In this document: one piece after another, positions 44,747 through 55,277 of the stretch
Numbering within the stretch: position 1 is the stretch's first letter
How the letters are laid out: every line of letters begins with the position of its first letter
From: Nonomuraea turcica
Lineage (GTDB): Bacteria; Actinomycetota; Actinomycetes; Streptosporangiales; Streptosporangiaceae
DNA: 64,000 nt
NCBI RefSeq assembly: GCF_030718205.1
Contig: NZ_JAUZQF010000001.1
Location: 1 to 64,000 of the forward strand
Reading direction: 5' to 3'
The notes under the pieces: model-generated
Database searches by the model: none
What the model was told of the DNA's origin: nothing
What the model saw: the letters and a program-made list of their open reading frames with translations, nothing else
Made by a program: the position numbers and the translations under genes

Positions 44747-45170
44747 CCTTGAACGAGCGCTGTCGGCTCGTGCGCTGGGATGTGAGCGTCGGCCGACGCC
44801 GGACCGCGGGTCGTCATCGACCACGGGCAGGCACCCAAGTCGGCGATCAATCCCCAAGCCGGAGTGCCACGCCGGAGGCGATCCGATGAGCATCGCGCCG
44901 GCGGCGCGGAGCACCGCAGGGGGTCACCTCCATCAGCGGCTGGGGACGCGACACCCCGGGAGCCGGCCATGGCGGCGATCGTTAAGGGGCTCGCATGTGG
45001 TGATCTTATGGCGGTTTTGTGGGGCCCGACGCAATTGTTGACCATGAGGCGATCGCACCGGGAGAGCCGGCTCTACCTGCGCCGTCTATCAGTCCGGTAA
45101 CCGCTGATCGTGTGGCTGCTCACCACACCACCCATATGCCTCGCTGCGGACAGGCCGGAGCGAGAGTCGA
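44747..45170. other. Gene-free stretch upstream of peptide cassette
   Basis: There is no convincing ORF; the short frames that exist have no RBS and no family-like sequence. The part from about 44980 to 45180 is visibly lower in G+C than its surroundings and contains TTGACC (45038), but no well-spaced -10, so it is only a possible promoter region for the peptide gene. Confidence 0.5.
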
Positions 45171-45182
45171 ATGGAGGAACCT

Positions 45183-45263
45183 GTGGTCAGAATGAGCCTG
45201 CGCTATGCCAGGTACGCACTCAGCACCCTGACGACTGCACTGTTCCAGCTGCCCTGCAGCTAA
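45183..45263 (+). CDS. 26-residue candidate precursor/signal peptide
   Basis: GTG 45183 has an ideal GGAGGA RBS (45173-45178, 4-nt gap). The ORF reads M-V-R-M-S-L-R-Y-A-R-Y-A... (basic first half), then a hydrophobic stretch STLTTALFQLP, and ends in Cys-Ser followed by TAA. A basic N-terminus, amphipathic or hydrophobic centre and near-terminal Cys are typical of leaderless signal peptides or small modified peptides. A perfect hairpin follows, then a ligase and an intramembrane protease gene on the same strand. Too small for reliable homology; I have no family. In-frame ATG at 45171 lies on the RBS and is unlikely. Confidence 0.5.
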   Translation: MVRMSLRYARYALSTLTTALFQLPCS

Positions 45264-45271
45264 CGGAAACA

Positions 45272-45301
45272 CGGTCGGCCGGTCTACGGACCGGCCGACC
45301 G
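45272..45301 (+). terminator. Perfect 13-bp hairpin with TACG tetraloop
   Basis: CGGTCGGCCGGTC (45272-45284) pairs completely with its reverse complement at 45289-45301 around TACG. It lies 8 nt past the peptide stop and 35 nt before the ligase start. With no U-tract it is better seen as a partial terminator or RNA-stability element, giving more peptide mRNA than enzyme mRNA. Confidence 0.75.
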
Positions 45302-45335
45302 AGCCAGTCTGTGCCGTCAGATGAATTGAGGCCCC

Positions 45336-46769
45336 ATGCTTGCCACAGCCGCTCGACAGCTCCGCTATGTCGCCACCGTGCTCCGCGGCGGCCGATTCGA
45401 CGTTGACGCACTACGGAAAATGGTGAGCGACCTCCGTCAGACGCTTGACGAGTTCGGCGAGCCGGGTGAGGGCGCCAATGAGCTGCTGCCCGGCGGCGGT
45501 GTCGATGACCCGGAGATCCGGCGGTCGATGGCGGACCGGCGCCTGCGCCAGGCGATCCGCCAGGCTGCCGAGCACACTGCCTACTATCGGCTCTGGTTCA
45601 AGGAGCACGGGGTCGATCCGAGTCGTATCGGTCTCGATCAACTGCACCAGGTCGCGTCCACGCCCAAGTCGGCCTTGCGCGGCGCCGGTCCGGCGTTCGT
45701 GTCCGACCAGAGCGAACCGGTCCTGATGGCACAGACCACCGGCACCACCGGGACGCCGACGGTCGTCTGGTTTTCGCGCTACGAGCTGGAGCTGTCCGCG
45801 GTGCTGTCCGCGATCTCCTACCTCATGGTCGGTGGCGTGCGGGAACACCACGTCAGCATGTCGTGTGTCAGCTCGCGAGCGACCGTGGGCCTGATCTCGG
45901 TGCAGCGGGCGCTGGGCCTCGTCGGCGCCGGTTTCGTCGCGCAAGGACTGGTCGACCCGGGCATCGCGTTGGACCGGCTGGCCACGCCGCTGCACCTGCC
46001 AGGAAAGGCGCCGCACATCACCGACCTGTACACGGTTCCCTCGTACCTGGGGGCGCTCGTGCAGCGCGCCGAGCAGGACGGCTGGCAGGCCAGAGATTTC
46101 GGGCTGCGCCAGATCCTGACCGGAGCGGAAATCCTGACCGACGCGCTGCGCGAGCGGGTACGCGAGGTGTTCGACGTGCCGGTCTCCGACGTGTACGGAA
46201 TGACGGAGCTCGTGCCGACCACGGGACTGGTCTGCACGCAGCAGCACCTTCATCTGGCATCCGAGCAGGCCCACTTCGAGGTACTCGACCGGAACGCCGA
46301 CACCCCGGCGCCGGTGGGTGAGATCGGCGAACTCGTGGCCACGCCGTACGTTCCCTACCGAGACACGACGCTGCTCGTCCGGTACAGAACGGGCGATCTC
46401 GTCCGCCGGCTCCCGGACGAACCCTATGGCTGTGAGCTGGCCCAGCTCCCGGCCACCTCACCGATCGTCGGGCGGGCCAAACACTTCACCGGAGGTCCGA
46501 CCGCCCGCGACATCCTGGAGGTGCTGCAGGGAGTGAGGGAGGTCCCGCTGCCCACCCGGTACGCGCTGACCGGCGATCCGCTCAAGCCCGATCTTCATGT
46601 CGTCGCACCACGCGGCGGCGGTCTGCTCGGCCGGATCGAGGAGCGAGCGGCGGCTCGGTCACTCCAGGTCGCCGACATCGTGCTCGTCGAAGAAGCCGGG
46701 GATCTTCCCGAGCCGTGCCGAGTGCGCGCGGACCTGTACGAGCACAGTTTCGAGACGTCGCCTTCATAG
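45336..46769 (+). CDS. PaaK/LuxE-like adenylate-forming enzyme
   Basis: A 477-residue member of the phenylacetate-CoA ligase-like/acyl-protein-synthetase branch of the ANL superfamily. Residues 70-110 are PaaK-like (RQAAEHTAYYRLWFKEHGVDPSRI). The AMP-binding P-loop is AQTTGTTGTPTVVWFS. The A5-type motif SDVYGMTELVPTTG is followed by YRTGDLV and the A8-region GRAKHF. The usual DDM after GR is absent, so the C-terminal step may differ. It would activate a carboxylate as an acyl-AMP. It lies between the peptide ORF and the GxGD protease gene, 33 nt apart from the latter, in an apparent operon. Confidence 0.85.
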   Translation: MLATAARQLRYVATVLRGGRFDVDALRKMVSDLRQTLDEFGEPGEGANELLPGGGVDDPEIRRSMADRRLRQAIRQAAEHTAYYRLWFKEHGVDPSRIGLDQLHQVASTPKSALRGAGPAFVSDQSEPVLMAQTTGTTGTPTVVWFSRYELELSAVLSAISYLMVGGVREHHVSMSCVSSRATVGLISVQRALGLVGAGFVAQGLVDPGIALDRLATPLHLPGKAPHITDLYTVPSYLGALVQRAEQDGWQARDFGLRQILTGAEILTDALRERVREVFDVPVSDVYGMTELVPTTGLVCTQQHLHLASEQAHFEVLDRNADTPAPVGEIGELVATPYVPYRDTTLLVRYRTGDLVRRLPDEPYGCELAQLPATSPIVGRAKHFTGGPTARDILEVLQGVREVPLPTRYALTGDPLKPDLHVVAPRGGGLLGRIEERAAARSLQVADIVLVEEAGDLPEPCRVRADLYEHSFETSPS

Positions 46770-46802
46770 CGGCGATCACCTCTCTCGCCGGCCCGGAGAC
46801 CC

Positions 46803-47831
46803 ATGTTCACCTTGCAGAACTTCGCGTTACTCGACCTCCTCATCGCTCTGATCGTGCTGCTCGGCCTCGGCTACGCGCACCGGTTCCGGCTGCCGCGACC
46901 GCCGGTAGGGCGTTTCACCACCTCCGACGTGCTCATCATGAGCTGTCTGGTGGTCGTGATGCCCATCACGTATCTCGCCATGCCGGCACCGGCCGTCTCC
47001 GGGGTATTCGGCGTCATGTTCCTCGCCAGCGTCCAGCTCGCGCTCGCGCCGTTGCTGGGGGGACGATCGGCCACGGTCGCCGCCGTCCTGCTCGCCGCCG
47101 CCGCGGCCGGGGCCGCCATCGCCGGGTACGGCACCTTGGTGCTGGTGCTCAATGCCGTCCTCATCATGATCGCCGTGATCGGTGTGACAAGTCTGTGGAC
47201 GCAGACCGGGATGACAGCCGGGCACGTCGCGGCGTTCGCCACCGCGCTGGCGGTGTACGACCTGTTCGCTACCGGCCTTGGCGACATGACCGATCGGTTC
47301 CTGGCTCAGGTGGAGGGCTATCCGTTCGCGCCGCTCCTCGCCGTGACGAGCGGAGCCATACCGGTCGCGGCGGGCCTCGGCGACTGTCTGATCCTGGCGC
47401 TGTGGCCGATGGTGGCGACCAAGGCGTACGGCAAGCCCGCGGGATGGATCGGGGCGGCCACCGGCATCGGCCTGATCATCGTGGTGCAGATCGGATTCGC
47501 CACCGGCGTGCTCCACTCAGGCATGGCGTTCCTCACCGTGCTGGGGCCGGCGATCCTTGTTCAGTATCTGCTCTGGCGCAGGATCCGCGGGGCGGAACGC
47601 CGCACCCACCAATGGCTCGGTGTACCGACGTCAGCGGTCGACACGTCCGGCCGAATCGACCAGATGGCGAGCGCCCTGCGCACCGCCCGATCCGCGACCG
47701 ACCTGCCGGCCGGCACCTGGGCGGCCGTTGACGACGATGCGGTCATCGCACAGGGACCGACACCTGGGACGGCGCTAAGAGCCGCACGCCGCGCCGGTTA
47801 CCTGAACGTCCCGTTCATCAGGCAGATCTAG
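46803..47831 (+). CDS. Presenilin/SPP-like GxGD intramembrane aspartyl protease
   Basis: A 342-residue membrane protein with about nine helices in 1-260. It has the paired catalytic signatures of the presenilin/signal-peptide-peptidase clan: YD (Y152-D153) in one helix, GLGD (G191-D194) in the next, and PA-I-L (P249-L252) in a late helix. The two Asp are 41 residues apart, as in SPP-type enzymes. A second GLGD (158-161) occurs in the loop. The cytoplasmic end (about 300-342, GTWAAVDDDAVIAQGP, ALRAARRAGYLNVPFI) resembles small DUF5678-like domains. It probably cuts membrane-bound peptides, plausibly the upstream 26-mer. The stop overlaps the convergent SARP gene by 4 nt. Confidence 0.75.
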   Translation: MFTLQNFALLDLLIALIVLLGLGYAHRFRLPRPPVGRFTTSDVLIMSCLVVVMPITYLAMPAPAVSGVFGVMFLASVQLALAPLLGGRSATVAAVLLAAAAAGAAIAGYGTLVLVLNAVLIMIAVIGVTSLWTQTGMTAGHVAAFATALAVYDLFATGLGDMTDRFLAQVEGYPFAPLLAVTSGAIPVAAGLGDCLILALWPMVATKAYGKPAGWIGAATGIGLIIVVQIGFATGVLHSGMAFLTVLGPAILVQYLLWRRIRGAERRTHQWLGVPTSAVDTSGRIDQMASALRTARSATDLPAGTWAAVDDDAVIAQGPTPGTALRAARRAGYLNVPFIRQI

Positions 47832-50800
47832 GGCCGGTATAGCAAGGCGAACGTCTCCGTCTGTTCAGGTGCGCCCGCTTTCGTCAGGATGGCGTGCGCA
47901 CGCCGCCAAGCCGACCGTGCCGCGCCCTCTCTCCCCGTCCCCTGAAACACATGCCCCAGAGTGATCAGCGTTCTGGCCTGGGCGAGCCGCTGCCCGGTTC
48001 GCCGGAAGATCCGCAGTGCCTCCTCACAGTGCTCCTCGCAGGAGACCAGCTCGCCCAGACCAAGGCACGCGGCCGAAAGAGCGCTATGTGCCTTGCCCAG
48101 CGCCAAGGCGTACCCATTGCCTGCCAGGTGCCGGGCACAGTCGGCGAGGCTCAGCGCCTCGGTGTGAAGACCTCGGAAGTGGGCCAGCTCCGATCGCGCC
48201 AGCAGCAGCTCCACCTGGTTCGGCCGATGGCTGGTGTGTTCGGCGATGGCCGCAGCCGCGGCGAGGCGGTCATCGGCGTCTCCAGCATCCCTGCACCGGA
48301 GGCTCACCAGCGCCAGTCCGATCAGCGCGCGCACCTCGACTTCGTGGTTCTCGACGCTCTTGGCCACGGATATCGCCTCCGACAGGGCTTGGAGCGCGGA
48401 GTCATAGCGACCGGCCTCCAGATGCACGCCGCCGAGGGATTCCAGCGCCATGGCCTCCACGTACGGGGATCCGATCTCGCGCCCGACGGTCAATGACCCG
48501 CTGAGCGTGGCGAAGGCGTCCTCGAGCCGGCCCATCTCCCGCTGAACCACTCCGAGGTTGGTGCGCACGACGGCCTCGAGCTGGCGCTTGCCGATCTCGA
48601 TGGCCGCGGCGAGCGCCTGCCGGTGGCGCTCTTCAGCGTCGCGCAAGCGGCCGAGGTCAAGATACAGAGCCGCCAGGTTGCCGAGGCTGGACGTCTCGCC
48701 CGCGCGGTTGCCGAGTTCGCGGTCGATGGCAAGGGCTCGCCGGAACCGGCCGATGGCCCGCTCCGGCACCCCGGCCTGCGCGAGAGCCACCCCGCTGGCT
48801 CGCAGCACGGCCGATTCTCCCGCGCTCCAGCCCGCGCGGCGCAGGAAAGGCAGCGCCTGGCGGTAGGCGTCCATGGCGGCGTCCAGGTCGGCGATCCGCC
48901 ACCGTATGTAGCCGATGGACATCAGCATCGCGCCCTGCCCCATGCTGTCCTGCTCGATGCGGGCGGCCTTGAGCCCGAGTTCGGCGATGCGCAGGCACTC
49001 GGTGATGGGCCGTTTCCAGGGCAGGACATCTCTCAGGGCATCGGCCAGCCGCCAGGCCAAGGCGTGGGGGCCGCGCTCAGCCGCACGGGCGATCAACGTG
49101 GCGATGGTGTCCCACTCCCGGTCGAGCCAGTTCTCCGCGTCGGCCGTGCTGCTGAAGGAGAGGGGCGTCACCTCCGTGACCGGTCCGTCCGGCGCCGGTC
49201 CGACCACGCGTACATCGACGTGCTCACCCGCGGAGACGATGGTCCGCAGGTAGAAGTCCAAGTACCGGTTGATGGCGGTCTCACGCTCGGCGGGCGGGTC
49301 CTCCGCCTCAGCCCGCTCCGCGGCGTACGTGACCAGCAGGTCGTGACAGGTATAGCGGTCCGGTCCCGCGTTCATCAGATGGACCCGCGCCAAGTCGTCC
49401 AGGAGCTTGGCCGTGTCCGTCGGGGAGTAGCCTGCCAGCGCCACCGCGCCCGCGACGGTGATGCCGGTGTTCGGCACCAGCCCGATCAGCCGGAACAGCC
49501 GCCGTCCCGCCGGGGCCAGCGCCTCGTGGGATCGTCCGACCGCGCCGCGCACCGCCGTGCGCCGATCGCCCGCGACCTCCAGTTGGGAAAGAAGGTCGTG
49601 ATCGCCGAGCTCGGCCATGTACTGTGCGATCGTCTTGTGCGGGCTGCTCGCCACCCTGGCGCCCGAGACCCGCAGGGCCAGCGGCAGGCGCGCGCAGAGT
49701 TCAGCCAGTCGCGCGGCGGCGTGCGGTTCCCTGCGGACCTTGTCCGGTCCCACGGTGTCGGCGAGCAGTTCGACGGCATCGTCCGGATCAAGCACGTCCA
49801 GCGTGACCCGCCCGGCGGACTCCAGCGCCACCAGGCCGCTCAGCCGGTCCCGGCTGGTAACCAGGATCCGGGATCCGGTGTCGGGGGGTATCAGCGAACG
49901 GATCTGGTCCGGCTCGGCGGCGTTGTCCAGCACCACGAGAACACGCTGTCCAGCCAGGATCGACCGGTACAGGCCGATCTGGGCCTCAAGCTCCACGGGG
50001 ATGTCCTCCGCGGGCCAGCCGAGCGCCTGGATCAGGCGCGGCAGCGCCTCGGCTGTGCTCATCGGCGGCGCCTGGTCGAACCCCCGCAGGTCGAGGAAGA
50101 GCTGCCCGTCGGGGAAGCGCTCCGCCACGTGATGCGCCCAGTGGACGGCGAGCGTGGTCTTGCCGACTCCGGCGCCCCCGACCACGAGGATCACCTGCGC
50201 GGCTGACACCTCGTCCAGCTGTCCGAGCTCCGCCCGCCTGCCGATCAGCCGGCCCACCGCCGGCGGGAGCTGCCGGGGAACGAGGCGGCGTACAGTCTGG
50301 CGCTCGGGCAGGGTGAGCGCCTCGTCGTTCCCCAGGATCGCCGCGTGCAGGCGCTGGAGCTCGGTGCCCGGTTCGACGCCCAGCTCACCCGCCAACACCG
50401 TCCGGACCCGGTCGTAGATCTCCAGGGCCTCGGCCCGCCTGCCGGACCGGTGGAGTGCCAGGATGAGCTGCAGCCAGACGCGTTCGTTGAGCGAGTTGGC
50501 CTCGGCGAGCGCCCGTAGCTCGCCGATCAGCTCTTCGTGCAGGCCCAGCCGCAAGCGGACGTCGGTCCAGTCGGACCGGGCGGAAAGCGCCAATTCCTCC
50601 AGAACAGCGACGCGAGGCGTCACGGCGGAGGTGAGCAGCGCGTCCTCGGCAGGTCGGCCGCGCCACAGCGACAGTGCGGTCCGGTATGCGTCGTTGGCCG
50701 CGGCCAGGTCTCCATCGTTCGCGTGGTGGCGGGCCGTGCTCAGCAGGTCCTCGAAGACGAGCAGGTCGAGCTGGGTCCGCTCGAGATTCAGAAGATAGCC

Positions 50801-51043
50801 GTGGTCCTGGGTGACGAGGTGAGGGACGACCGTTCGGCGGAGGCGGGTGACGTAGCTGTGGATGTTCGACACGGCGGACGCGGGCGGCTCTTCCCACAGG
50901 CAGTCGATCAGCCGCTCCAGGGAGACCGACATATTAGGAAAGAGCAGTAACACGCCAAGCACGGACCGCTGTTTTCCCGAGAGGTGCACGGGCCTGTCTG
51001 CGGAGAGGGCCTGAACAGAACCGAGGATTCCGTACACGGTCAC
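47828..51043 (-). CDS. SARP-type regulator (BTAD-NB-ARC-TPR, AfsR-like)
   Basis: A 1071-residue AfsR-like STAND regulator. Residues 1-90 are an OmpR-like winged helix (VYGILGSVQALSADRP...GKQRSVLGVLL; RLIDCLWEE), and about 95-245 a BTAD domain. The NB-ARC ATPase has the P-loop GGAGVGKTT (about 292) and the RVLVVLDNA and SRILVTSRDR Walker B/sensor segments. TPR repeats occupy about 600-1060. Such proteins activate secondary-metabolite or signalling genes. The GTG start has GGGAG 6 nt upstream. Its end overlaps the protease gene; its start is divergent from the AICARFT-like gene. Confidence 0.92.
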   Translation of the reverse strand: MTVYGILGSVQALSADRPVHLSGKQRSVLGVLLLFPNMSVSLERLIDCLWEEPPASAVSNIHSYVTRLRRTVVPHLVTQDHGYLLNLERTQLDLLVFEDLLSTARHHANDGDLAAANDAYRTALSLWRGRPAEDALLTSAVTPRVAVLEELALSARSDWTDVRLRLGLHEELIGELRALAEANSLNERVWLQLILALHRSGRRAEALEIYDRVRTVLAGELGVEPGTELQRLHAAILGNDEALTLPERQTVRRLVPRQLPPAVGRLIGRRAELGQLDEVSAAQVILVVGGAGVGKTTLAVHWAHHVAERFPDGQLFLDLRGFDQAPPMSTAEALPRLIQALGWPAEDIPVELEAQIGLYRSILAGQRVLVVLDNAAEPDQIRSLIPPDTGSRILVTSRDRLSGLVALESAGRVTLDVLDPDDAVELLADTVGPDKVRREPHAAARLAELCARLPLALRVSGARVASSPHKTIAQYMAELGDHDLLSQLEVAGDRRTAVRGAVGRSHEALAPAGRRLFRLIGLVPNTGITVAGAVALAGYSPTDTAKLLDDLARVHLMNAGPDRYTCHDLLVTYAAERAEAEDPPAERETAINRYLDFYLRTIVSAGEHVDVRVVGPAPDGPVTEVTPLSFSSTADAENWLDREWDTIATLIARAAERGPHALAWRLADALRDVLPWKRPITECLRIAELGLKAARIEQDSMGQGAMLMSIGYIRWRIADLDAAMDAYRQALPFLRRAGWSAGESAVLRASGVALAQAGVPERAIGRFRRALAIDRELGNRAGETSSLGNLAALYLDLGRLRDAEERHRQALAAAIEIGKRQLEAVVRTNLGVVQREMGRLEDAFATLSGSLTVGREIGSPYVEAMALESLGGVHLEAGRYDSALQALSEAISVAKSVENHEVEVRALIGLALVSLRCRDAGDADDRLAAAAAIAEHTSHRPNQVELLLARSELAHFRGLHTEALSLADCARHLAGNGYALALGKAHSALSAACLGLGELVSCEEHCEEALRIFRRTGQRLAQARTLITLGHVFQGTGREGAARSAWRRAHAILTKAGAPEQTETFALLYRP

Positions 51044-51273
51044 AGGCGGCTCCCGATCATCGTCGAGACACGTTGTACACCGGGCCGTCGAGGCCACGCA
51101 AGGCGACCTCGTGGTCACCCGCGCGTCCACGACGCTCGGCACCGGCCTGAGTACACTAGTGCCCGGCCGCGACTGGCGCAGGTGGGCCACCACCGGGGAG
51201 CGGCCGTGTCCCGATGCGAGCGTCGACCGCCTGGGCGCCTCCATCAGCGAAGTCCCGCTGAGGAGGCCAGAAC

Positions 51274-52431
51274 GTGCAGTTGCGCTACGGAATCAACCCG
51301 CAGCAAACACAAGCGCACGCCATCCCGACGACGCCGGACCGCTGGCCGGTCCGGATTCTGCACGGACAACCGTCGTTCACCAACCTGCTCGATGCCCTGA
51401 ACGCCTGGCAACTCGTGCACGAGGCCGCCCAGGCGCTGGGCAAGCCCGCTGCCGCGTCCTTCAAGCACGTCTCACCCGCGGGCGCGGCCCTGTCCGGGCC
51501 CATCGACGAGGTCACCGAGCAGCTCCATGGCATCGTCGGCTCGCGCATCACCGACCTGACCAGCGCCTACCTTCGCGCTCGCGACGCCGACCCCAAATCC
51601 TCCTACGGCGACATCGCCGCCGTCTCCCATCCCGTCGACGCCGACCTCGCCGAACTCCTGACCGGAATGGTCTGCGACGGCATCATCGCCCCCGGATTCG
51701 AGCCCGGCACCGTCGAACGGCTCAGCACCAAGAAGAACGGCCGATTCCTCATCCTGGAGGCGGACCCGGCGTTCATCCCTCCGCCGCAGGAGTCGCGGGA
51801 GGTCTTCGGCGTGCGCCTGAACCAGGACCGCGACCAGGTCCCGATCTCCCGAGACCTGCTCGACGTCGTCGTAGGCGCGCCGTTGCCCGAGACGGCCGCC
51901 GACGATCTGGTGCTGGGCCTGATCGTCCTGCGCTACACCCAGTCGAATTCGGTCTGCTACCTGCGTGACGGTATGACCCTTGGCATCGGCGCGGGCCAGC
52001 AGTCTCGGGTGGACTGCACCCGCCTGGCCGGCGCCAAGGTGGACACCTGGTGGCTCCGCCGTCACCCGACGGTGCATGCCCTTCCCTTCGTGCCCGGGTT
52101 GCGGAACCAGGAGAAGATCAACTGGCAGGTTCGCTTCATCGAGGGCGGCCTCACCCCCCTCGAGCGGCGCCACTTCGCCCAAGCCCTGATAGAACCGGTC
52201 GACGAGCTGACACCCGACCAGCGTGCCGAGTGGAGCCGCCGTCTTAGGGAAGTCGCGTTCGTCTCCGACGGCTACCTGCCGTTCCGCGACAACATCGATC
52301 ATGCCCAGCGCCACGGCGTCACCTACATCGCCGAGCCGGGCGGATCCATCCGGTCCGACGAGATCGCGGTCGCCTGCCGCGAGCACGGGATCACGCTGGC
52401 CCGCACCGGCCTACGGCTGTTCCACCACTGA
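51274..52431 (+). CDS. Stand-alone AICAR formyltransferase-like protein
   Basis: A 385-residue protein matching only the transformylase half of PurH. It opens LRYGINPQQTQAHA, has ASFKHVSPAGAALSGP (the active-site Lys-His pair), LTSAYLRARDADPKSSYGDIAA, YTQSNSVCYLRDGMTLGIGAGQQSRVDCTRLA and SDGYLPFRDNIDHA. The IMP cyclohydrolase domain is missing. It would formylate AICAR or a related aminoimidazole. The sequence is diverged from housekeeping PurH, so a dedicated role is possible. GAGGAGG RBS. It is divergent from the SARP gene. Confidence 0.87.
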   Translation: MQLRYGINPQQTQAHAIPTTPDRWPVRILHGQPSFTNLLDALNAWQLVHEAAQALGKPAAASFKHVSPAGAALSGPIDEVTEQLHGIVGSRITDLTSAYLRARDADPKSSYGDIAAVSHPVDADLAELLTGMVCDGIIAPGFEPGTVERLSTKKNGRFLILEADPAFIPPPQESREVFGVRLNQDRDQVPISRDLLDVVVGAPLPETAADDLVLGLIVLRYTQSNSVCYLRDGMTLGIGAGQQSRVDCTRLAGAKVDTWWLRRHPTVHALPFVPGLRNQEKINWQVRFIEGGLTPLERRHFAQALIEPVDELTPDQRAEWSRRLREVAFVSDGYLPFRDNIDHAQRHGVTYIAEPGGSIRSDEIAVACREHGITLARTGLRLFHH

Positions 52432-54034: not shown

Positions 54035-54251
54035 GCAAGACTGACCGCCCCCACCGACAAAACTCATCGCCCCGCCCCAGGATTCCGGCAAGCGATGCGA
54101 AATGTCACCCGGTTTTCACCGATGGCGGACGATGACCAGGCCGGGCCGGACGCGCGCGAGGTCACCTCATCGGCGTCGGCCATCGGGGCAGCGGCAACCG
54201 GTGAAACCCGGTCGAGGGCGCCGTGAAACCGGCACCCTCGACAGTGAAGCC

Positions 54252-55277
54252 ATGAGCATCACAGAACTCAAACGTACCGGGGGCGGCCCGGCCCACGCAG
54301 GTGGCGCCGATCTGGCCGTACGTGCGGAAGGGCTGGTGAAGACGTTCGGCGAGCACCGTGCCGTCGACGGGATCGACCTGGACGTACGCCCCGGTGAGAT
54401 CTTCGGCGTCCTCGGCCCCAACGGGGCGGGCAAAACCACCACGCTGCGGATGCTGGCCACTCTGTTGAAGATCGACGCGGGCCGTGCCGAGATCTTCGGG
54501 GTCGACGTGGCCGGCAATCCGCACGTGATCCGCCAACTGGTCGGCGTCACCGGACAGTACGCGTCGGTCGACGAGAACCTGACCGCCCGCGAGAACCTCT
54601 GGCTCTTCAGCCGCCTGCAGGGCATCGCCGCGCCGCGCGCCCGGCGCATCGCCATCGAACTGCTGGGCCAGTTCGGCCTGGAGGAGGCCGCCGACAGACC
54701 GATCGCGCAGTTCTCCGGCGGCATGCGCCGGCGCCTCGACCTGGCGGCCAGCCTGATCACCAGGCCGCCGCTGATCTTCCTCGATGAGCCGACGACCGGT
54801 CTCGATCCGCGCACCCGTGGTCAGATGTGGGACACCATCCGCGGTCTGGTCGCCGACGGCTGCACGGTGCTGCTGACCACGCAATACCTGGACGAGGCCG
54901 ACCAGCTCGCCGACCGCGTCGCCGTCATCGACCACGGCCGCAAGGTCGCCGAAGGCACTCCCGACGAGTTGAAGACCGCGGTCGGCAACTCCACCCTCCA
55001 GCTGCTGCTCGCCGATCCGGGCGAGGTGCCCGCCGCCGTGGAGGTCATGCGGCGTGTCCTCGGCTCCGACCCGGTCCTCAGCCCGGAGCAGGGCCGCCTC
55101 AACGTCGCCCTCGACCAGGCGGACCTGGCGGCGGACGTACTGATCGCGCTGCGCACCGCAGGGGTGTCGATCTCCTCGGTCAGCGTGGCCAAGCCCAGCC
55201 TGGACGAGGTGTTTCTCGCCCTCACCGGCCACGAGACGGACAGGGACGACGAGACCGGCACGGAGGAGAACCGATGA
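54252..55277 (+). CDS. ABC exporter ATPase, DrrA-like
   Basis: A 341-residue ATP-binding subunit. Walker A is GPNGAGKTTT, the Q-loop is near TGQYASVDENLT, the signature is FSGGMRRRLDLA, Walker B is PPLIFLDEPTTGLD, and the H-switch region is TQYLDEADQLAD. The C-terminal ~90 residues match the DrrA-type regulatory extension of the drug-resistance subclass. It overlaps the permease gene by 4 nt. A GACAGT box 6 nt before the ATG may be a leaderless -10. Confidence 0.93.
   Translation: MSITELKRTGGGPAHAGGADLAVRAEGLVKTFGEHRAVDGIDLDVRPGEIFGVLGPNGAGKTTTLRMLATLLKIDAGRAEIFGVDVAGNPHVIRQLVGVTGQYASVDENLTARENLWLFSRLQGIAAPRARRIAIELLGQFGLEEAADRPIAQFSGGMRRRLDLAASLITRPPLIFLDEPTTGLDPRTRGQMWDTIRGLVADGCTVLLTTQYLDEADQLADRVAVIDHGRKVAEGTPDELKTAVGNSTLQLLLADPGEVPAAVEVMRRVLGSDPVLSPEQGRLNVALDQADLAADVLIALRTAGVSISSVSVAKPSLDEVFLALTGHETDRDDETGTEENR

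Follow-up and report, generated by a model that had tools for sequence, protein, structure and literature searches.

The window analyzed here, 64,000 nucleotides of Nonomuraea turcica (contig NZ_JAUZQF010000001.1 of assembly GCF_030718205.1, positions 1 to 64,000 of the forward strand), carries three adjacent genes on one strand that encode a 26-amino-acid peptide, an adenylate-forming ligase, and a membrane protease of the presenilin/signal peptide peptidase (SPP) fold. By sequence comparison, they are a real and conserved cassette, undescribed as far as we have seen. The three genes very probably act together. We moderately favor the reading that the cassette is self-contained and matures its small peptide, the product of which would be a short signal or a modified peptide. 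A preliminary description, made from the letters of the window, had listed a 26-codon open reading frame (ORF), a hairpin, a ligase, a membrane protein, and a convergent SARP regulator, and all of these are present in the sequence. Its remark that no such trio had been described has also held. Full-text literature searches for the trio, for a bacterial protease of this family, and for peptide strings gave nothing among the matches listed, which were judged from titles and the starts of abstracts and covered few subscription papers and preprints.

Conservation and co-inheritance of the cassette

A pattern-seeded scan with the protease alignment, using one genome per species across 84,980 species, yielded 33 named loci. 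They belong to Nonomuraea, Streptomyces, Actinacidiphila, Actinomadura, a metagenome-assembled genome (MAG) of Streptosporangiaceae, and two MAGs labeled Anaerolineales and Thermomicrobiales. The loci found by separate searches overlap (many of the same-genus loci come from genomes that are also among the 33 named loci, as do at least two Streptomyces loci), and counts are kept per search. The ligase gene lies immediately 5' of the protease gene in 33 of 33 named loci, with 35-95% identity to the window ligase. A peptide gene is likewise present in all 33, placed 5' of the ligase gene in 31 and beyond the protease gene in two. In one of these two (L067) it directly follows the protease gene at the 3' side, and in the other (L064) two copies are found on the opposite strand. 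A further locus (L066) carries two tandem copies. Given its two copies in L066 and in L064 and its position past the protease gene in L067, the peptide behaves as a substrate and not as a leader. The proposal that the three genes are one conserved cassette is thereby upheld. The pattern that would undercut it, with neither a short ORF nor a ligase beside orthologous protease genes, was not what the loci displayed.

Searches within single groups gave the same association. The protease is found in 16 of 98 related genomes, the window's own included, and of 16 same-genus loci retrieved with wider flanks, 15 have the peptide; the exception (L035) has a broken ligase. Among 295 Streptomyces genomes, the protease occurs in 18, the ligase (E<=1e-30) in 17, and a match to the peptide profile in 7, and all ligase and peptide matches fall within those 18. 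The profile was built without the MSA-type peptides and misses that clade; when the loci were inspected directly, the peptide was seen in 16 of the 18 protease-bearing genomes. The two loci without it are decayed, one with a partial ligase and a split protease (L106), the other with no ligase match and a partial protease (L110). Thus, no recognizable peptide is left in the three decayed cassettes L035, L106, and L110, in which the ligase is broken, partial, or missing or the protease is split or partial. No orphan ligase or orphan peptide was found among the 295 Streptomyces genomes (ligase E<=1e-30, at most five candidates scored per genome; a peptide profile that misses the MSA-type clade). 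The peptide profile also found no orphan peptide in the window's own genome, where the single strong match is this locus (E 2.9e-11; next best 0.13).

Four peptide types mapped on a 51-row ligase tree require three changes, which is the minimum, against a mean of 24.2 after shuffling; the groups were assigned by the analyst, with the 24- and 26-mers put with the 25-mers, and the support of the 25-mer group is only 84/49. Streptomyces and Nonomuraea each hold two peptide types. Since the type maps minimally on the ligase tree although two genera each hold two types, the peptide type tracks the enzymes and not the species.

Outside these groups, class-wide and phylum-wide searches gave matches in 2 of 197 and 3 of 296 genomes, including the window's own; the rest were marginal fragments, and no trustworthy new holder was found. 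A plasmid search with the 26-mer as query gave no match. Four plasmid records did match the cassette; the two inspected, both linear, come from Streptomyces sp. NBC_01324 (L070) and Embleya sp. NBC_00896 (L071), and both carry it. In the one annotated plasmid inspected, the gene table of which is incomplete, the ligase carries a family name, the protease is listed as 'hypothetical', and nothing is annotated at the peptide.

The precursor peptide

The peptide gene VVRMSLRYARYALSTLTTALFQLPCS occupies 45183..45263 on the forward strand, as indicated by its ORF, the core pattern, the profile, and the start alignment. It starts with GTG at 45183, preceded by the ribosome-binding site GGAGG at 45173..45177, and stops with TAA at 45261-45263, giving a C-terminus that ends in LPCS. 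Starting at the in-frame ATG at 45168 would lengthen the product to 30 amino acids, and starting at an internal ATG would shorten it. GTG 45183 is preferred because its ribosome-binding site is better and because the starts of the relatives align with it. The peptide of Nonomuraea solani is identical in amino acids to that of the window and differs by synonymous changes only (pS 0.098, pN 0, one pair). Purifying selection is also seen across the family, with pN/pS of 0.27 in the 22-mers (120 pairs) and 0.50 in the 25-mers (55 pairs). Translation of the peptide is supported because synonymous changes per site exceed nonsynonymous ones.

The 41 distinct peptides are 22-31 amino acids long and share an ungapped 14-residue core with constant spacing, [YHQ]-x-[KR]-[YF]-[AVI]-x-[SGA]-x-[LM]-x4-F, a pattern fitted to the same 41 peptides, so that its fixed letters are fixed by construction. 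Core position 4 is Tyr in 40 of 41. The N-terminal half is basic and aromatic, the core is hydrophobic, and the tail varies; in a split by hydropathy, the cut fell one repeat too early in some of the 25- and 26-mers. The tail of 3-8 residues after the core is the most variable part, with 33 different tails among the 41 peptides. Six variants of the peptide were below the cut-off of every Pfam and NCBIfam family, and a sub-threshold Pfam match to Vta1_C (E 0.0049) was taken as chance.

Cysteine is present in the tail of only 11 of the 41 distinct peptides, and a conserved C-terminal cysteine was rejected on this count; a special role for it is not supported. The preliminary description had proposed checking for recurrence of a ligase and of a short peptide with a '..PCS' end beside the protease; the ligase and the short peptide do recur, but the PCS-like end in the hypervariable tail does not. 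An acyl group on the C-terminal cysteine, which it had also suggested, finds no support for the same reason. The divergent MSA-type tails often have a Cys with Pro-Ser or Ser-Ala-Ser after it (TNCPS, ATCSAS), and the window peptide has the end LPCS, although the enzyme clades are far apart.

The ligase and the protease

The ligase gene (45336..46769, forward strand) encodes 477 amino acids with an altered C-terminal domain. The AMP-binding domain PF00501 is above its cut-off in the window ligase (E 1.5e-13) and is matched at E<=0.1 in 22 of 26 members. In VIA comparisons with solved structures, the model (pLDDT 89.1) reaches Z scores of 31.7 to the PaaK-type structure 4rvo, 31.6 to PaaK1, 29.9 to 6six (NatL2 family), and 28.8 to AjiA1, and the range for NatL2, AjiA1, and ClxA together is 28.6-29.9. 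The nucleotide-binding motifs TTGT and T-x-D are kept, the position of E. coli PaaK K68 is Lys in 51 of 51 ligases, and the C-terminal region has a motif of its own, R-x-D-L-x-E. The phenylacetate-CoA ligase model TIGR02155 gave 88.8 bits, below its cut-off of 646.3. By modeled fold and motifs, the ligase is an ANL adenylate-forming enzyme of the PaaK-like branch. Some PaaK-like relatives transfer the activated acid not to CoA but to amines or phenols. Because of these relatives, acylation or nucleotidylation of a peptide Lys, Tyr, or the N-terminus is the foremost candidate chemistry.

The protease gene (46803..47831, forward strand) encodes 342 amino acids with nine long helices and a small C-terminal domain. 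YD is at residues 152-153, GLGD at 191-194, and GP at 248-249. The preliminary description had read YD and GLGD correctly; its helix-9 motif is corrected here to 'LGPAI', a presumed variant of the presenilin PAL. YD, GLGD, and the helix-9 Gly-Pro are invariant in 29 of 29 aligned proteases, and the helix-9 motif, GP-[LA]-x in place of PAL, is at the expected place. In 11 proteases of the divergent clade B, YD is kept and GxGD is read as GMGD or GLGD; six of the 11 passed the script, and the other five were read by eye. The protease of N. solani is an 85% match to that of the window.

An AlphaFold2 model was built from a 29-sequence alignment that included the window protease (mean pLDDT 89.7). 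VIA placed it closest to SPPL2a (9k93; Z 24.0, root-mean-square deviation 3.1 over 252 residues), presenilin-1 (20.9), and archaeal PSH (16.9), and the first unrelated structure had a Z of 4.7. Foldseek gave the same families on top, with a best E of 1.7e-3 at probability 1.00 and none at E<=0.001. The presenilin/SPP fold that had been proposed for this membrane protein is thus supported by the model. Identity to presenilin/SPP relatives is about 13%. The protease was below the cut-off of all Pfam and NCBIfam families, and a search against the sequences of solved structures gave no match; the sub-threshold Pfam match of one protease to ArAE_1 (E 0.01) was taken as chance. The small C-terminal domain (residues 303-332, window 47709-47798) has a weak DUF5678-like match (E 0.0079; best 0.0009, in 5 of 15 members) and is absent from several relatives.

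Basic residues favor loops 1-2, 3-4, 5-6, and 7-8 and the C-terminus, and because basic loops alternate in this way the protease is predicted to be N-out/C-in. This is also the topology of SPP. SPP cleaves type II membrane proteins (PMC2947513). The peptide would be type II, given its basic N-terminus and hydrophobic C-terminal half. The protease probably cuts the peptide.

The spacer hairpin, the promoter and the SARP regulator

A perfect hairpin with a 13-bp stem and a TACG loop lies between the peptide and ligase genes (45272..45301, forward strand). The RNA z-score of this spacer is -4.71, and none of 200 shuffles was as stable. Predicted GC hairpins occupy the same position in the set of 31 loci, the exceptions being loci with long spacers (L053, L056, L061, L063, L066). 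Spacer z-scores in eight loci range from -1.73 to -6.15, and that of L060 is unremarkable (-1.73, 10 of 200 shuffles as stable). Such a hairpin would fit a surplus of the peptide over the enzymes. In L056, L061, and L063, the spacer has 163-291 bases of very GC-rich repeated sequence.

An AfsR-type large SARP regulator is encoded on the reverse strand at 47828..51244, convergent with the protease gene and overlapping its last bases. Its Pfam domains are SARP/BTAD (BTAD E 2.1e-38), NB-ARC, and TPR. Among 16 same-genus loci, 13 have the convergent SARP gene, noted in the preliminary description, beside the protease gene. It adjoins the cassette in Nonomuraea loci only, and a role as a general part of the cassette was rejected; it stands outside the core system. 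In the Streptomyces loci L054 and L063, a weak SARP-like match is found elsewhere in 20 kb and is not convergent on the protease. Beside the SARP gene of the window is a gene for a 385-amino-acid AICARFT/IMPCHase-like protein (51274-52431; E 2.7e-56), the profile of which is matched only from position 78.

Upstream of the peptide gene, three 11-bp direct repeats (TGTGG / TATGG / TGTGG; 44996..45022, forward strand) resemble a SARP-type operator, with a repeat score of 14/15. TGTRG repeats of this spacing score 12-15 out of 15 in 12 Nonomuraea loci and at most 10 in the other 21 loci. The SARP gene is adjacent in 11 of the 12 (11 of 11 SARP-adjacent loci have the repeats), the contig ends first in the remaining one, and none of the 21 others has the repeats. 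Since the score was devised by visual inspection of the same loci, its control with random stretches (0 of 272-298 per locus, 12 loci) is not independent; the contrast with the loci lacking SARP is an independent control. At one mismatch or fewer, the repeat pattern has 4 sites in the 12.66-Mb genome, this one included, and a reversed-pattern control has 2. SARPs bind direct repeats with a spacing of 11 or 22 bp, and AfsR is inhibited by its own NOD and TPR domains, like STAND proteins awaiting a stimulus (PMC10936776). From the 11-bp repeats and this binding mode, the SARP probably activates the cassette promoter in Nonomuraea. That it also senses the cassette product is a guess.

Nonomuraea sp. 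NEAU-A123 has two cassettes on different scaffolds (L047, L050), one with the SARP gene and the SARP repeats, the other with neither and with a 24-amino-acid peptide. Cassette promoters of Streptomyces (L038, L039, L041-L043, L046, L051, L055, L070) have, some 115-120 bp ahead of the start and next to a likely -10 box, an inverted repeat resembling GTTGA-N4-TCAAC. It was seen by eye, is perfect in some loci and imperfect in others, and may be a repressor site. A crude survey of the Streptomyces loci found no regulator at a fixed place beside the cassette and no shared regulator family.

Proposed maturation and alternative explanations

Maturation would start from a precursor of 22-31 amino acids which, by comparison, is co-inherited with both enzymes. 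The precursor would be embedded in the membrane so that the basic N-terminus faces the cytoplasm and the tail faces the exterior. The cytoplasmic ligase, with ATP, would modify the conserved N-terminal half, most likely by acylation (Lys, Tyr, or the N-terminus) or by nucleotidyl transfer. The protease would then cut the precursor within the membrane, releasing a short C-terminal peptide outside and/or a modified N-terminal fragment in the cytoplasm. The variable tail may provide a lineage-specific signal akin to the short hydrophobic pheromones of gram-positive bacteria. In Nonomuraea, the adjoining AfsR-type SARP would turn the promoter on via the 11-bp repeats, and its TPR sensor is a candidate receptor. 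Co-inheritance of a precursor gene with a protease and a putative tailoring enzyme is a trait that the cassette has in common with pathways for ribosomally synthesized and post-translationally modified peptides, the tailoring role being conjectural. That the product is a signal is close to an even question, leaning slightly to the negative. The full loop in Nonomuraea, in which the SARP would read a secreted peptide signal through its TPR/NB-ARC part and activate the cassette, would be actinobacterial peptide quorum sensing; we put it forward tentatively, as improbable.

Several observations weigh against the scheme as a whole. PaaK-like and other ANL enzymes normally use a C-terminal lysine; at the position of E. 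coli PaaK K424, Lys is absent from 51 of 51 ligases (the alignment there is weak), and because of this absence the chemistry may differ. The hydrophobic stretch of the peptide, about 14-18 residues, is short for a full membrane span. None of the Pfam A22 models matched at E<=1 in 15 protease members. Loop 6-7, predicted to be outside, has 1.79 K/R per sequence (and also 3.00 D/E). One protease fragment (G545) has no adjacent ligase match. In a crude survey of 38 loci, no gene for an exporter, importer, or receptor kept a constant position next to the cassette. In addition, topology, cut site, modification, and export are all deduced from sequence.

The product of the same maturation steps could be membrane-active instead of a signal: a modified peptide, new among ribosomal natural products, of an antimicrobial or surfactant-like kind. 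We regard this as unlikely. The cationic N-terminus and hydrophobic core would suit such a product, and the patchy occurrence (18 of 295 genomes) and the presence on plasmid records are like those of natural products. SARPs activate antibiotic biosynthesis (PMC10936776). ABC ATPases, considered as exporters, are found within 10 kb in 11 of 38 loci at scattered distances. One of these transporter ATPases, at window 54102-55277 and 2.9 kb past the SARP gene, has a DrrA-like C-terminal domain. However, neither an exporter nor an immunity gene has a fixed place beside the cassette, and it is the short tail that varies whereas the core does not. Ten immediate neighbors from six loci are mostly unrelated to each other, and no RRNPP regulator is among them.

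The peptide could instead be a stable small subunit or regulator of the protease, or an adaptor tethering the ligase, and stay uncut. Strict co-inheritance and matched types would be equally expected in that case, and small membrane subunits are common. A subunit does not readily account for two peptide genes in L066 and L064, for a hairpin after the peptide gene that could favor an excess of peptide over the enzymes, or for the hypervariable tail (33 among 41). We therefore consider an uncut subunit quite improbable.

A toxin-antitoxin or phage-defense unit, with the peptide as a membrane toxin restrained by the protease and ligase, is very improbable. The peptide is small, hydrophobic, and cationic, and the cassette is patchy and found on plasmid records, as such a unit could be. 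PADLOC gave no match for the ligase or the protease, PHROGs gave none for the three cassette proteins of the window, and a pattern scan of viral contigs gave no confirmed ligase relative, which leaves a phage or defense origin unsupported. Moreover, in the three decayed loci the peptide was lost together with parts of the enzymes.

Finally, the least credible alternative, that the ORF is a leader peptide which attenuates the ligase-protease mRNA together with the hairpin, agrees with an ORF upstream of the ligase and a hairpin in the spacer but is rejected on the duplication in L066, the downstream gene in L067, and the opposite strand in L064, and on a peptide whose amino acids are conserved between phyla despite codon changes at many positions.

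Relation to known systems and implications

The cassette protease shares with SPP and presenilin (SPPL2a 9k93, presenilin-1, archaeal PSH/MCMJR1) a fold of nine helices, the YD motif in helix 6 and GxGD in helix 7, a helix-9 proline motif, and the predicted N-out/C-in topology. It differs in being bacterial, distant in sequence and missed by Pfam, in having GP-[LA] instead of PAL and, in many members, the extra C-terminal domain, and in its link to one small peptide gene and a ligase.

The SHP/Rgg system and the enterococcal sex pheromones use precursors of 20-30 amino acids with a basic start and a hydrophobic C-terminal half, which are matured by the site-2 protease Eep. Precursor size, basic start, hydrophobic C-terminal half, and an intramembrane protease are alike in the cassette, as is a nearby TPR regulator in Nonomuraea. 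In contrast, the cassette protease is not of the site-2 kind but an aspartyl enzyme of the presenilin type, is encoded in the cassette itself, and is accompanied by a ligase. Relatives of the NatL2/AjiA1/ClxA type couple an activated acid to a nucleophile. The cassette ligase has their ANL fold and P-loop but differs from them by the missing C-terminal lysine, by its R-x-D-L-x-E motif, and by its pairing with a peptide and a protease. The SARP of the window is like AfsR in domain order and in the 11-bp repeat type of operator; here, the gene is beside the cassette in Nonomuraea only, and the operator is upstream of the peptide gene.

If maturation of the peptide by the two enzymes is true, presenilin-type proteases, the fold of which is that of a human protease involved in Alzheimer's disease, would gain a defined bacterial substrate, and peptide maturation would gain an adenylating enzyme. 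The Nonomuraea cassettes would offer a direct test of how AfsR-type regulators are activated and, if the signal loop is also true, would provide a peptide input for a large SARP and peptide quorum sensing in actinobacteria.

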